Below, in pieces: positions 9,761-22,426 of a stretch of 22,460 bases of DNA. Origin of the DNA: a virus. Every line of letters starts with the position of its first letter. Position 1 is the first letter of the stretch. The notes beneath the pieces are model-generated. The model was not told where the DNA came from. It was given only the letters and a program-made list of their open reading frames with translations, and did no database searches. The stretch lies in the IMG/VR virus record IMGVR_UViG_3300043446_003696, positions 1-22,460 of that record, one strand, 5' to 3'. The translations under genes and the position numbers were made by a program.

Positions 9761-11662
9761 TCAAACACTAATATCAGTTACTCCTTGTTGAACAGCTCTT
9801 TCCTTCTGACGAAGCATTTGAAGAACTCTTTGCTTTTCCTGTCTCTTCTGCTGCACTTGTCTTGCTTGCATTTGCTGAGATTGAGCGTTCTGAGTGGTAT
9901 TCTGAGTAGACTTTTGTGATTGTTGAGTTTTTGGTTGAAGTTCCATTGCCTGTTCAGCAACTCTCTTAGCTATTTTAGTGGCAGTTGCATACATCACTTC
10001 TTCACCACGACCAGGATATCTCCTTTCAAAGTCCGATTTTTTTGATTTCATAGACTTTACAATTCTTTCCTTTTCTTTTGTTTCAGCAGCACTTAAAGTT
10101 TTTTCATCAAGTTGCGTTTCCTCAATACGATAAGCACCAGTTTTTCCTGCTTTTGGATGCATTGCTCTTGCAGTTCTTTCTGCTTTACTCGCAGAAATAG
10201 ATGCAGATGCTCTGGTCACATTATCTTTTTTAAGTTTATTGACCGAAGATTGAGTTTCTCTTTGAGCATCGTCCAGTCTCTGGTCTACAACTGCATTCTT
10301 TGCTCTATCACCAATCACACTCTCGCTCCTTACAGATGCAAGAAGATCATCTAATTTTGACTTTCTCTTTCTTTTTGGTGCAGCAGAAGATTTTGCTTTT
10401 GGTGCTGCTGGTGCTGCTTTTTTAGTTTTTGCCTTTGGTTTTTGTGGAGTAGTTGCACTTCCTTCCCAAGGATCAGAAGGTTTCTCCGCTTTCTTTTTCG
10501 TTGGTGGAGTATAAGAACCACTACTTACTTTTTCTTTCTGTCCTACACCAGCACCACGATAAGTTGATGCTTTTCTTGCTGCGGTATGTGCCGTACTTGG
10601 AGTTTTATCTCCTCCTTCCATTTTACGAGCAACACCTAAAGCACCCTTAGCAACTTTTCTAGCACCCTTCGCTATTGCCGACGATGCTGCACTTTTAGCA
10701 CCCCGAACTTTAGATGAAAGTTTTTTTCTTGCAAGTCTTCCAACTGCTTTTAGTAAATTCCCCCTTTTCTTTTCGCCTGTTGGAGTATCGTGACCAAAGG
10801 TTACTGTTGCTTCCGTTAAAGCATACTCCAGAGCTTCTTCAATATCATCTTCATCATAACCTTCATCAAGAAGTTCATCATAAACACTCTCGACAATATA
10901 ATCAACCTCATCAATTTCAATCATTTCAATTAGAGTTCCACCAAGATTCTCTACTGCCTCGGTAATTGATGGATTAATTACAACTTTATTCTCTATATTT
11001 TTTTCAGTAATTTTACCCTCATTTTTATCTTTTTCAATAAGATCCATTATCTCAATAAGATCATCTCTCCAGTTTGAAAAACTTTCTTTGATTTTTTTCT
11101 TTTTCTTAAACTTACCAGAAACCTCCCCTTCCTCATATCCCTTTCCATCACCATCATCATCCCACCATCTCTTCACTTCTTTTGCTTCTTGAGTTGCAAT
11201 TGCCTTACCAACTGCTTTCCTACGATTTAGAAGATACTTATCAGACTTTGTATTCTTCTTACCGTCATTATCAACATCATCATCTTCCTTACCTACAGGG
11301 TCTAATGCTTCTTTAACAGGATCATTACTTCTAGATTTCCACTTTCCGCCATATTCCTTTTCCATTTGTGATCTAAATCCTTTTACAGCTTTTTTTCTTA
11401 CAGATGCTTTGGGATGGTCCGAAACATTTTGTAGTGGAGACCTTCCACTAGGTGCTTCACCGTGCTCTGGATCTACAAACTCTTCATCAAACTTTTTTGC
11501 TGCAGTTGCTGCCATACTTTTATAAGCATCGGTTTTCTTCATATCTTCAACTGCCTTCTCATTATCTTTACGACGCTTCTTCATATCAGTCTCAAGATGA
11601 GAAGACTCAATAATTTGTTCAAAGTAAATGTCAGTAATATCTCTTACAATATTAGTATCCAT
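9761..11662 (-). CDS. Large basic virion protein with EF-hand-like loops (putative prohead core/internal protein)
   Basis: 633-aa protein from ATG 11660-11662. Order of features: a helical, charged N-terminus; a DxDxDG loop at about 129-141 (DVDNDGKKNTKSD) and a second at about 168-179 (DDDGDGKGYEEG), both resembling EF-hand/dockerin calcium sites; a KKKKKIKESF block; an acidic helical region at 195-285; a Lys/Ala/Pro-rich, histone-H1-like basic region at about 300-435; a conserved-looking segment at 508-572 (YRIEETQLDEKTLSAAE, then RRYPGRGEEVMYATATKIAK); and a Gln-rich tail. The 508-572 block is one I recall from many cyanophage structural proteins. Several sequences fit the T4 gp21 prohead-protease consensus (L/I-x-E): SITE|A, ALTE|A, RIEE|T and QLDE|K. 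I infer a cleaved, DNA-contacting head protein. CATAAATA at 11696-11703 is its likely late promoter. Confidence 0.75.
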   Translation of the reverse strand: MDTNIVRDITDIYFEQIIESSHLETDMKKRRKDNEKAVEDMKKTDAYKSMAATAAKKFDEEFVDPEHGEAPSGRSPLQNVSDHPKASVRKKAVKGFRSQMEKEYGGKWKSRSNDPVKEALDPVGKEDDDVDNDGKKNTKSDKYLLNRRKAVGKAIATQEAKEVKRWWDDDGDGKGYEEGEVSGKFKKKKKIKESFSNWRDDLIEIMDLIEKDKNEGKITEKNIENKVVINPSITEAVENLGGTLIEMIEIDEVDYIVESVYDELLDEGYDEDDIEEALEYALTEATVTFGHDTPTGEKKRGNLLKAVGRLARKKLSSKVRGAKSAASSAIAKGARKVAKGALGVARKMEGGDKTPSTAHTAARKASTYRGAGVGQKEKVSSGSYTPPTKKKAEKPSDPWEGSATTPQKPKAKTKKAAPAAPKAKSSAAPKRKRKSKLDDLLASVRSESVIGDRAKNAVVDQRLDDAQRETQSSVNKLKKDNVTRASASISASKAERTARAMHPKAGKTGAYRIEETQLDEKTLSAAETKEKERIVKSMKSKKSDFERRYPGRGEEVMYATATKIAKRVAEQAMELQPKTQQSQKSTQNTTQNAQSQQMQARQVQQKRQEKQRVLQMLRQKERAVQQGVTDISV

Positions 11663-12962
11663 TAGAATAAACGCTTTCTTTTATTTTTCTATACTTATTT
11701 ATGAAATTGACTCCATATGCCTTACCACCCTTTTGTAAGTTCTGACTATTAGTTCCAATCACACCAGGAGTTTTGCTTGCATAATGCTTAAATGCTCCAG
11801 TTGTTCCTACAAGAGTATTTGGGTGAGTCTTATCTCTCATAGGACTATCCATCTTAACTTCAGTATATTCCATCAAATCCCTAATCCAAGACTTAAACAT
11901 ATAACCTTCTTCTGTCACGCAGATTAAATGATTAGTTCCTCTACGCATTACTTCACCAACCAATCCCGTATTTAAGTTTTCAACTCTATCACCAATTCTA
12001 AAAATTTTATTTCTTACATAATTCTCACGAAGATTTTTCATATCAAACTTTGGAGCAATTTGCCAAAGTTGATAACTCTCTTTCTTTACTTTCGATTTCT
12101 TTATACCCATTCCTTGACGGACAGCATTAAAGAGTGCTTGTGCTTGTCCATCGTCAAGTGTCTTTGGAGTTCCTCTACGGAATGATTTGAAGTCATCATC
12201 CATTACCGCTTTTCTCATTTTGGATGCAGACATTCCTTCTACTCCTTCTGCATCAGCATCACGGACACCAGCAGAAATCACACGAATTTGATCAAATGTA
12301 TAAAGATCTCCATTATACTTTTGTGCAAGATTTTCAAACTCTGCTTGACGATCAGAACCAACTACAATATTGACATTAGTATACCCATCCTCATTTGCAT
12401 TCACAAGAACATTAAAGATAGTCTTCATATCCTTATCATTAATAATGTTTTCCTCAAATTCAGGGAACATTTTTTTCATATATGAAACTTTAATATCAGG
12501 GTCTAAAGGATTTTTCTTTGGATCCTGAGACCTTGATGGATAAATCTTAATATCTCCTCCAGCAGAAATTCTCTTAGCAGATTTCAGAAGTTTTTCGTGT
12601 CCTACTGTTGGTGGATTGAAACGACCAAAAACAACCGTGAGTGGTGGTAGTTCTTCTGCTGGTTGCTCTTCGGGTGCTGCTCCAGGTGCTTGCTGAGGTG
12701 CTGCAGAAGCGGGTGCTTGTGCTGCTTGAGGTTGTGTTGCGGGTGCTGCTGCTTGTTGAGGTTGTGCTGCGGCAGGTTCTTGTGCTCCCTTTGCCTGACG
12801 ACCATCAATATACTTGAGTTTTCCTTTATCAGTTCTTGCAACAAGTTTACCAGAGCGGTCTAACCATCCACCGTGACCGTCCCCAGTATATCCAAGTTTT
12901 TTTGCTTGCAACGCTGCTTGCGATTGGGTTGCTTCTGTTAAAAATCTAGAAAAACTCTTCAT
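11652..12962 (-). CDS. Nucleotidyltransferase-fold protein with capsid-targeting-like N-terminus
   Basis: 436-aa protein; ATG 12960-12962 gives MKSFSRFLTEA. Features: residues 1-11 match the T4 internal-protein targeting peptide MKTYQEFIAEA, with L-T-E|A as a gp21-type cleavage site; about 15-55 is a Gly/Trp/Lys-rich motif (LGYTGDGHGGWLDRSGKLVA); 60-105 is an Ala/Pro/Gln linker; about 108-262 is a cytidylyltransferase-like nucleotide-binding domain with VVFGRFNPPTVGH (T-x-G-H motif, 119-122), IVVGSDR and the C-terminal signature SASKMRK; about 318-365 is a small SH3/KOW-like stretch (FRIGDRVENLNTGLVGEVM); the basic tail ends NKYRKIKES. The enzyme class is likely to transfer a nucleotide onto a small phosphorylated substrate (as in NAD or CoA synthesis), but the substrate cannot be read from sequence. 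The late octamer GATAAATA (12983-12990) lies 21 nt upstream, and it neighbours head genes. Confidence 0.85.
   Translation of the reverse strand: MKSFSRFLTEATQSQAALQAKKLGYTGDGHGGWLDRSGKLVARTDKGKLKYIDGRQAKGAQEPAAAQPQQAAAPATQPQAAQAPASAAPQQAPGAAPEEQPAEELPPLTVVFGRFNPPTVGHEKLLKSAKRISAGGDIKIYPSRSQDPKKNPLDPDIKVSYMKKMFPEFEENIINDKDMKTIFNVLVNANEDGYTNVNIVVGSDRQAEFENLAQKYNGDLYTFDQIRVISAGVRDADAEGVEGMSASKMRKAVMDDDFKSFRRGTPKTLDDGQAQALFNAVRQGMGIKKSKVKKESYQLWQIAPKFDMKNLRENYVRNKIFRIGDRVENLNTGLVGEVMRRGTNHLICVTEEGYMFKSWIRDLMEYTEVKMDSPMRDKTHPNTLVGTTGAFKHYASKTPGVIGTNSQNLQKGGKAYGVNFINKYRKIKESVYSNGY
11696..11703 (-). promoter_or_regulatory. Late-type octamer CATAAATA
   Basis: 34 nt upstream of the 9761-11662 ATG, inside the last codons of the nucleotidyltransferase gene. 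One change from TATAAATA. Confidence 0.5.
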
Positions 12963-12982: not shown

Positions 12983-12990
12983 TATTTATC
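12983..12990 (-). promoter_or_regulatory. Late-type octamer GATAAATA fused to a stop codon
   Basis: TGATAAATA: the octamer overlaps the TGA stop (12989-12991) of the 464-aa gene and lies 21 nt upstream of the nucleotidyltransferase ATG. Confidence 0.6.
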
Positions 12991-14383
12991 AATACAGTTT
13001 TCCAAAAGGACCGAACTTATTGCCTTTTTTGATTGCAAGAAACACAATATCCGTCCAAACTTCTGATTGTTTTTTCTCTGGTGTTATTTTAAAAATAGAA
13101 TCTAAAAAAGCAAGTTGCATTAATTTTGCATTTGCGACATGTGGTTTTTCAAAAAATGCAGCTTTCATATTTTTGTCAAATTGCACATTACTTATAATTC
13201 CAGTTTCAACTTTTGTTTTCACCCTATCGAACATAGATTTAAATTCATCCGCTTTTTTTGAATATTCATCCAAAGATTTTGGATAATTACCATTCGCTTT
13301 ATCAAAAGTTTGTCCACAATCTTTTAAAAGTTGAACAACCATTTCTACTTGAGCTTTCCCGCCTCTTGCAGCACCAGCTCCAATTTGCGTTGCTTCCCAT
13401 TTTAAATTACTAAATTTGGAAGAATCATTTGCTTTAATTTGAAACTTAAATCCTTTGCCATTCCTTTTTGTCAATTTAACAATAGTATCTTGTGTCATAT
13501 TTTCGGTCAATTTAATAGTGACTTCAACATTAGGAAAATTATAATCATCAATTTCTTCCAATGTTAATTGTTCAACATTGTATTCTTCAAATTTTGCTTG
13601 CTGTCCTGATACTTTTTTCAAAGATATACCAACCAATTTTCTCTCTTTATATAAAGATCTCATTACAGCATTTAATTCTTCTATGGTTTGACTACCTTTA
13701 CTTCCATCAACAGTCTTATCTATTACATCGGTAATTTTTTTGACTGAAGATTTAATTAACCACATATCAGCTGGGTCCCAATTATCTTTTTTTGATATTC
13801 CAAATTTCTTGACTATAAGACCACTAATATACTCCATAAAAGAACCATTGCCACTATGGTCAAAAATATTCCACTGACTACTAGAAAACTCATCAAACAT
13901 TTTTTTATGCTGCTTCCAAAACACTTCCATCCATTCAAATTCAACAGTTGGATATACTTTTTTGATGCCTTCCATCGTTTCTTTATCGTTCATCATATCT
14001 TCAACAGACTTCCAAGTAATATTATCTTTCAAGACTCTTTCAAAAACATAAGTAGAAGCCTTTTCTTGCATCAAAGTTGTTTTAGCATCTGCAGCTTTAG
14101 TTGCTGTTGGTTTATATGTAATCGTTACCGATTTTAAAGATGACTTTGGATCAAATGAAATAATTGTGGATGGAAAAGAAGATCCACTCACTACTTTTGA
14201 CATATATGGAATTTTCTTTTTATCAAGCATTTCATGAATCTTAGACGAAGTTTCAATTCTATTGGCAGTTCCAACTTTTAGTTTTTTTGTTGTTTTTGTT
14301 GAGGTTTCATTAATTAAAAGAGATCTATCAAGTTTCAATTCTTCCAAAACATCTACAAATTCCGGAACCTTAGCAAAAGCCAT
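12989..14383 (-). CDS. Conserved cyanophage protein, 464 aa, function unknown
   Basis: From ATG 14381-14383 (MAFAKVPEFVDVL). Mixed alpha/beta protein, lysine-rich, with no signal peptide or membrane segment. Notable segments: an N-terminal stretch ending LLINE|TS (fits the L/I-x-E prohead-protease rule), WMEVFWKQHKKMFDEF, DNWDPADMWLIKSS, KLVGISLKKVSGQQAKFEEY and a C-terminus NKFGPFGKLY. The DPADMWL...GISLKK pair resembles the spacing of PD-(D/E)xK nuclease cores (an Asp-containing strand, then S-x-K in place of E-x-K), but a key acidic residue is not obvious, so I do not call it a nuclease. It is located among late genes, after tRNA-Ala. TCTAAATA (14409-14416) is the only promoter-like element directly before it. 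The Shine-Dalgarno is not evident. Confidence 0.8.
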   Translation of the reverse strand: MAFAKVPEFVDVLEELKLDRSLLINETSTKTTKKLKVGTANRIETSSKIHEMLDKKKIPYMSKVVSGSSFPSTIISFDPKSSLKSVTITYKPTATKAADAKTTLMQEKASTYVFERVLKDNITWKSVEDMMNDKETMEGIKKVYPTVEFEWMEVFWKQHKKMFDEFSSSQWNIFDHSGNGSFMEYISGLIVKKFGISKKDNWDPADMWLIKSSVKKITDVIDKTVDGSKGSQTIEELNAVMRSLYKERKLVGISLKKVSGQQAKFEEYNVEQLTLEEIDDYNFPNVEVTIKLTENMTQDTIVKLTKRNGKGFKFQIKANDSSKFSNLKWEATQIGAGAARGGKAQVEMVVQLLKDCGQTFDKANGNYPKSLDEYSKKADEFKSMFDRVKTKVETGIISNVQFDKNMKAAFFEKPHVANAKLMQLAFLDSIFKITPEKKQSEVWTDIVFLAIKKGNKFGPFGKLY

Positions 14384-14561: not shown

Positions 14562-15126
14562 AGCGAACATTAGCAGCATACCACTTCTCAAAGGCCTCTC
14601 TACTCTTATTTCCTCTTGGGGGCATAGGAGTTCTTTCTCCACGAACAGGAGCATACTTTTTCTTTTCTTCTTTATCGTGTCCTTCTGGATTTTCTCTTGC
14701 TGCTTGTGCTTCACCAAGAATAATATCAATTGCTTCCTCATCAATCACATTCGCCATAATCCACTCTGCTTCTTCCAGAGTTTCTGCATATCCTTCTGCT
14801 TGGAGGAACTCAAGAACTACATCAAAGATATCAAGTTCTTCTCTTGTTAAATCAGGATCAACTCTAACATTTGATCCTGTTCTTTCATTTCTTCTTGCTG
14901 CCATTATATTAGTTCTCCGTGCTCTATGAAATGCTTTACCTGGAGAACCAGCACCACCATCTTCTCTATCAGATTGACGATTTCTAGCATCTACAACTCT
15001 CTGAACTTTTTTATCAGAAAGTTCATCAAGTTGCTCAATTTCATCTACTTGATCAACTTGAGGAGAATAAATTGCTTGATATGCTTCAAACATTCCGAAA
15101 GCATCTTTTCCAGTAAGTCTAGACAT
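14560..15126 (-). CDS. Conserved cyanophage protein, 188 aa (putative head/core protein)
   Basis: From ATG 15124-15126 (MSRLTGKDAFGMFEAY). The N-terminus has IEQLDE|LSDKK, which fits a gp21-type L-x-E site, and resembles the TQLDE|KTLS of the 633-aa protein. The middle is basic (KAFHRARRTNIMAARRNERTG) and is followed by a helical acidic region (LDIFDVVLEFLQAEGYAETL, EEAEWIMANVIDEEAIDIIL) and a C-terminal tail PMPPRGNKSREAFEKWYAA. I recall this C-terminal half as a frequently occurring, unnamed module in T4-like cyanophages. No enzyme motif is seen. A perfect TATAAATA late promoter (15151-15158) lies 25 nt upstream, so it is a late, probably virion, gene. Confidence 0.78.
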   Translation of the reverse strand: MSRLTGKDAFGMFEAYQAIYSPQVDQVDEIEQLDELSDKKVQRVVDARNRQSDREDGGAGSPGKAFHRARRTNIMAARRNERTGSNVRVDPDLTREELDIFDVVLEFLQAEGYAETLEEAEWIMANVIDEEAIDIILGEAQAARENPEGHDKEEKKKYAPVRGERTPMPPRGNKSREAFEKWYAANVR

Positions 15127-22264: not shown

Positions 22265-22272
22265 TATTTATT
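22265..22272 (-). promoter_or_regulatory. Late-like octamer AATAAATA at a stop codon
   Basis: GAATAAATA overlaps the TAA stop (22268-22270) of the 52-aa gene. The downstream terminator is close, so its use is doubtful; it is reported as part of the recurring stop/octamer pattern. Confidence 0.25.
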
Positions 22273-22426
22273 CGTCACCACCATCAGCACCACCACCAGC
22301 ACTAGAACGACTTCTTACAGGAACTGCTTTTCCTTTTGCAATTTTTTTCGCGTTTTCTCCAGAATAAACAGTGTGGGGAACTGCATTTTTATATGCAATT
22401 GTTTTGAACTCGTTGAAAGATTTCAT
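22268..22426 (-). CDS. Hypothetical 52-aa protein with MKSFNEF start
   Basis: ORF from ATG 22424-22426 to TAA 22268-22270. Product begins MKSFNEFKTIAYKNAVPH; the middle is basic (GENAKKIAKGKAVPVRSRS) and the end is Gly/Asp-rich (AGGGADGGDE). The N-terminus resembles the T4 capsid-targeting peptide (MKTYQEF...) and that of the nucleotidyltransferase gene (MKSFSRF), but no L/I-x-E cleavage site follows. It may be a small head-internal or DNA-binding protein. No Shine-Dalgarno is seen; a TCTAAATA octamer (22437-22444) is close upstream. Confidence 0.65.
   Translation of the reverse strand: MKSFNEFKTIAYKNAVPHTVYSGENAKKIAKGKAVPVRSRSSAGGGADGGDE

Follow-up and report, generated by a model that had tools for sequence, protein, structure and literature searches.

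The internal proteins of phage T4 enter the head by means of a short N-terminal capsid-targeting sequence (CTS). Mutagenesis of IPIII showed that residues 4 and 7 matter most for targeting and residues 8 and 10 for processing, and leaders of this kind have already been proposed to enable T4-like phages to package a variety of proteins (PMC9026906, review). The T4 ADP-ribosyltransferase Alt, another injected protein, likewise loses an N-terminal propeptide to the prohead protease. In cyanomyoviruses, mass spectrometry (MS) has detected a nucleotidyltransferase in CsCl-purified virions, as open reading frame (ORF) 91 of S-SCSM1 (PMC9602691) and as gp154 of S-CREM2 (PMC10665884), and both papers suggest that the virion enzyme enters the host. 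The subject here is a homolog of these enzymes, a 436-residue protein encoded on the minus strand of a 22,460-base virus contig (IMG/VR record IMGVR_UViG_3300043446_003696, positions 1 to 22,460; this whole stretch is the window). Its first eleven residues, MKSFSRFLTEA, probably direct it into the prohead and are cut there after E10, and injection of the enzyme into the host is likely, if a little less so.

The reading frame runs from an ATG at 12962 to a stop at 11652; a plus-strand reading of 11652-12962 was rejected, as stop codons occur all through the interval. The contig carries T4-like replication genes recognised from their translations (primase, NrdA, NrdB, gp41, UvsX and gp43) and its relatives are cyanomyoviruses. 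The protein matches the cytidyltransferase family phrog_395 (E 8e-104), and S-SCSM1 ORF91 is 60% identical to it over 98%. Translation of the minus strand bears out the preliminary description of a leader, a linker and a T-x-G-H nucleotidyltransferase domain, with the motif GRFNPPTVGH at residues 113-122.

Sequence comparison indicates that the leader is beyond chance and under selection. In 80 IMG/VR homologs, retrieved by patterns lying outside the leader, M1, K2, F4, F7, E10 and A11 are invariant (80/80); the start is thus kept in close homologs, where the preliminary description had named its loss as a sign against packaging. These homologs have 46 distinct DNA leaders, in which the codons for K2, F4, F7, E10 and A11 vary synonymously. 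All 46 have L or I at position 8 and keep E10, and positions 3, 5, 6, 9, 12 and 13 are variable. A pooled alignment was not used for leader conservation, because it had been partly picked by the leader motif and is biased accordingly, and independently fetched homolog sets took its place. The second of these, obtained with the transferase domain only of divergent relatives as queries, has 58 usable loci, nearly all of which begin with a leader variant ending in hydrophobic-x-E followed by A, G or E (MKTFNKFLTEA, MKEFGKFLTEA, MKQFGKWLTEA, MANKNFTSWLSEA, MKKLSSFLKEG and MKSFRQYVTEE). A few have a shortened start (MKTFSEA; MKTF-x-E-A), and one locus, L362, is without any leader.

The likeness to T4 that had been pointed out from the first eleven residues, including the cleavage-site positions, is confirmed: ipII and ipIII both start MKTYQEFIAEA, and the shared features are a 10-residue N-terminal leader with F/Y at position 4, F at 7, L/I at 8, E at 10 and A at 11. 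The targeting residues F4 and F7 thus stand at the extreme N-terminus and the L/I-x-E protease site at 8-10. The cleavage region of T4 gp23, FGSFLTEAE, is nearly the same as FSRFLTEAT in the leader. In the structure model, the leader is a helix at residues 4-12, predicted with low confidence (predicted local distance difference test score, pLDDT, about 53). A gp21-type protease and a scaffold are present in relatives. In G001, whose transferase is 86% identical, the prohead protease shares 83% identity with the S-SCSM1 one. Where T4 gp23 is cut (FLTE/A), the major capsid protein reads MLME/S in G001, FLAE/A in S-SCSM1 and LLTE/A in S-CREM2; the 22-kb window itself is without head genes. IPII and IPIII are small basic proteins, whereas the cargo here is a conserved enzyme, for which import and cutting would follow the T4 model. 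Alt has a shorter propeptide (MELITE) and belongs to a different enzyme class.

The capsid-targeting reading of the leader is well supported, because the invariant positions are the determinants mapped in T4, close homologs keep the start, and homologs occur in purified virions. S-SCSM1 ORF91 and S-CREM2 gp154 (MKNFSSFLTEA) have the same leader, and the available portions of the two MS papers make no mention of a targeting leader for either (PMC9602691, PMC10665884). Of the preliminary proposal that the protein is loaded into the prohead, trimmed and injected, the targeting part therefore stands; the cut at Ala11, injection and activity are inferences. The same description knew of no characterised case of this enzyme class as an injected protein, yet its presence in virions had been published for cyanomyoviruses under the names NMNAT (nicotinamide mononucleotide, NMN, adenylyltransferase) or cytidylyltransferase (PMC9602691, PMC10665884). 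Because both papers suggest host entry and both warn that abundant soluble proteins may co-purify, packaging of the class is prior art as a suspicion, and "packaged and perhaps injected" is published speculation; the mechanism, namely the leader, and the breadth of its use appear to be new. By a rival explanation, which the co-purification warning favours, an abundant soluble enzyme was carried over into the virion preparations, and the leader is due to chance or is an unrelated N-terminal helix. A RegA homolog in the S-SCSM1 virion list agrees with carry-over, which is nevertheless very unlikely in view of position-specific conservation matching the T4 determinants and of the leader's presence on many unrelated proteins, a swapped-motif control and the S-CREM2 virion set.

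In S-CREM2, start-like leaders are found on gp154 (the transferase), gp6 (S-adenosylmethionine, SAM, lyase), gp13, gp14 (APH/Ser-Thr kinase, with a GTG start) and gp136, and 5/5 of these ORFs are in the MS virion list, which holds 52 of the 219 ORFs (P = 6.5e-4). Since the regular expression was broadened on a second pass to allow Q at position 2 and a GTG start, gp154 coming from the first pass, the value for the pattern set before looking is also given (3/3, gp154, gp6 and gp13; P = 0.013). S-CREM2 gp12 has PLRFASFMAEA near its start; the depositors' name for it, Cas9, was not adopted, there being no Pfam match. The virion proteins gp12 and gp14 (L209, 7704-10313 and 10579-12846, minus strand) combine a leader-like start with stretches related to the DGHGxW module, an arrangement shared with the 436-residue protein, and gp154 is without this module.

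Among IMG/VR viral contigs, MKxFxxF[LIVMF]xEA gave at least 125 matches. Among the matches listed, the motif is at the true start in 120/120 ORFs of at least 60 residues, and these ORFs, stripped of residues 1-11, form up to 39 BLASTP clusters, an upper figure because clustering at E 1e-4 may leave remote homologs hidden between clusters. Pfam searches with 37 representatives of these listed matches found cytidylyltransferase-like, GNAT, glucosaminidase, DPBB_1, DUF192, DUF6267, DUF6321 and WYL_2 domains. As a control, the pattern with its E and A exchanged was run over the whole collection; of its 58 matches, 13 are start-like, some of them plausible leader variants. It is reasonably probable that MKxF-x-x-F-[LI]-x-E-[AG] serves marine T4-like viruses generally as an address tag from which head cargo can be predicted; dozens of unrelated proteins would be imported by it, freed by the protease and injected as swappable, pre-made effectors that can be listed from sequence. 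With the same degree of confidence, the cargo would comprise nucleotidyltransferases, a SAM lyase, a kinase, an acetyltransferase, cell-wall hydrolases and proteins of no assigned function. Because related marine viruses bear it on many proteins that have nothing else in common, the tag can serve to predict particle-carried, probably injected proteins. In the openly licensed PMC literature, a capsid targeting sequence and cyanophages are treated together only in the T4 review (PMC9026906).

The cyanomyovirus late promoter is NATAAATA (PMC2984593). This sequence precedes the transferase gene and the neighbours at 15126, 11662 and 9332, and CTAAATA precedes those at 14383 and 9721; neither is found within 70 nucleotides of gp41, uvsX, gp43, nrdA or primase. 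TAAATA occurs within 60 nucleotides of the ATG in 80/80 homologs, mostly 26 nucleotides off. The transferase would be made late, alongside the structural proteins of a T4-like cyanophage. The first 10-11 residues may form a short amphipathic helix docking into the prohead scaffold, as in the T4 internal proteins, and a gp21-type prohead protease would then cut after E10, leaving residues 11-436 free inside the head. At infection the enzyme would exit with the DNA and be active in the host ahead of any newly synthesised phage protein. Packaging, cleavage after E10 and injection are together the most likely course.

Besides the co-purification warning, several observations weigh against this scheme. 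S-SCSM1 ORF30 carries the leader and is not marked as detected in virions. It is, with the transferase gene, one of only 2 starts that fit the strict leader pattern in six frames of the whole S-SCSM1 genome; with 2 leader ORFs and 1 detected, too few, that genome was dropped as a stand-alone statistical test. S-CBWM1, which is not T4-like, has a virion NMNAT without the leader; for these two reasons, and with virion proteins unmarked in the stretch of its record examined, it was dropped as a third MS test. Distant stand-alone transferases of P-HM2, S-RSM4 and the jumbo phages Munch and Paride are leaderless, and the first two of these count here. Cyanophages have no gp67 or gp68, which are core proteins in T4 (PMC2984593), so docking may differ, the partner being perhaps a gp22-like scaffold. 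Finally, ATAAATA over the whole window is not significantly enriched (13 against 8.5 expected), and only its position and its conservation across homologs count.

A packaged and trimmed enzyme might also serve in the head or its assembly, for example in scaffold turnover or DNA packaging, rather than in the new host. The gene does lie in an island whose other genes encode virion proteins of unknown role (Table 1), and in S-SCSM1 GenBank labels ORFs 89-93, 95 and 97 around ORF91 as virion proteins. Such a role is improbable, for the conserved nucleotidyltransferase active site has no obvious use in assembly and T4 IPI and Alt, which have such propeptides, act in the host.

The catalytic motifs GRFNPPTxGH and MSASKMR are near-invariant in the alignment and intact here, and together with a modelled Rossmann-like fold they place the protein in the nucleotidyltransferase superfamily (PF01467). 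The protein itself (P0001) has no Pfam match at 0.001, and PF01467 is above cut-off in relatives L142 and L097 and in S-CREM2 gp154. A profile search of PDB sequences gave no match at 0.1. The structure prediction proposed in the preliminary description gave a confident core; Foldseek on the model finds NadD, phosphopantetheine adenylyltransferase (PPAT), archaeal NMNAT and NadM, all with probability 1.00, and offers no choice of substrate class among them. Synthesis of nicotinamide adenine dinucleotide (NAD) is the first choice, held at about even chances. Sequence models lean weakly to NadR/NMNAT, all under cut-off; one relative weakly matches the phage NMNAT family phrog_3462; and relative L097 (11230-12507, minus strand) joins the leader and nucleotidyltransferase to a P-loop kinase (AAA_33/zeta-like), a NadR-like pair. 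MSASKMR also resembles the NMNAT motif ISxTxxR. Phage and bacterial NMN and nicotinic acid mononucleotide adenylyltransferases (NadR, NadM, NadD; phrog_3462) share the fold and motifs of the types G-R-F-x-P-x-x-x-G-H and S-x-S-x-x-R, but have HxGH instead of TxGH, and the present protein has the leader and extra domains and is under curated family cut-offs. An NAD substrate is disfavoured by fold matches that include PPAT as often as NadD and by the failure of the protein to reach any NCBIfam NMNAT cut-off (best model E 0.011, 14.9 bits against a cut-off of 341). The PPAT fold matches, with T-x-G-H in place of H-x-G-H and the usual annotation as cytidyltransferase, make it only slightly less credible that the same packaged protein is a PPAT-like enzyme, a cytidylyltransferase or one acting on another phospho-substrate, which is compatible with packaging. 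As an NMN/NaMN-type adenylyltransferase, the enzyme could maintain or replenish NAD in the first stages of infection.

Table 1. Features of the transferase gene and its surroundings in the window
Feature	Position	Strand	Basis or remark
Neighbour, 633 residues	9761..11662	-	Homolog of S-SCSM1 virion protein ORF92: tblastn E 8e-39, 48% over 197 residues
Whole protein	11652..12962	-	Leader, small DGHG module, linker, nucleotidyltransferase domain, SH3-like domain, low-confidence tail
SH3-like beta domain, residues 309-365	11868..12038	-	Five strands at 326-365 in model; phrog_4808 match at 309-365
Nucleotidyltransferase domain, residues 107-275	12138..12644	-	GRFNPPTxGH and MSASKMR motifs near-invariant; pLDDT mostly 88-94
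Disordered Q/A/P-rich linker, residues 52-106	12645..12809	-	Highest column entropy; pLDDT <50 at 55-101
DGHGxW module, residues 14-51, remaining past the proposed cut	12810..12923	-	Short helix and beta strands; conserved G29, G31, G38
Proposed capsid-targeting leader, residues 1-11	12930..12962	-	Conserved in homologs; T4 CTS determinants
Proposed prohead-protease cut after E10	between 12933 and 12932	-	T4 CTS likeness
Late-promoter-like GATAAATA core, ATAAATA	12983..12989	-	Upstream of ATG 12962
Neighbour, 464 residues	12989..14383	-	phrog_1462 E 3e-90; same position as S-SCSM1 virion protein ORF90
Neighbour, 188 residues	14560..15126	-	Partial homolog of S-SCSM1 virion protein ORF89: tblastn E 1e-16 over 69 columns

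The structure model of the full protein (overall pLDDT 70.6; predicted template modelling score 0.45) is confident in the transferase core and weak elsewhere, with pLDDT of about 71-86 across residues 11-50 in the region of the DGHGxW module. The PHROG matched by the SH3-like domain is named ribonucleotide reductase alpha subunit, and the reductase names placed over the transferase gene in some phage records are probably an error. In P-HM2 and S-RSM4 (L239 and L241) the gene is split, and the leaderless transferase stands alone while the SH3-like domain belongs to another protein. Annotation places the start of the Bellamy transferase (L083, 15001-15048) 16 codons past the leader and in this way clips the tag. 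Of the neighbours, the 464-residue protein corresponds to S-SCSM1 ORF90 by position only, with no direct tblastn match at 1e-3, and in the 633-residue protein L/I-x-E-A/S/G sites recur, a pattern like that of scaffold or core proteins cut up by the prohead protease. Two further small ORFs resemble internal proteins. At 22268-22426 (minus strand) of the window, a 52-residue ORF begins MKSFNEFKTIAYKN, resembling T4 IPI (MKTFKEFTSTTT), which is likewise without E10, and by this likeness it is possibly a small internal protein. The T4 genome, scanned for the leader in the same way, yields ipII, ipIII and the uncharacterised 61.1; gp61.1 (L235, 18966-19130, minus strand; 54 residues) starts MKTFKEFIKED, which makes it a sequence-based candidate for an unrecognised T4 internal protein.

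Enzymes in cyanophage virions have so far been unexplained and doubted as contamination; the leader gives them a mechanism and helps to tell cargo from carry-over. It would allow candidate injected proteins to be predicted from genomes and metagenomes, and brings within reach of experiment the question which host functions (NAD, SAM, protein phosphorylation) are altered by marine viruses before viral gene expression.

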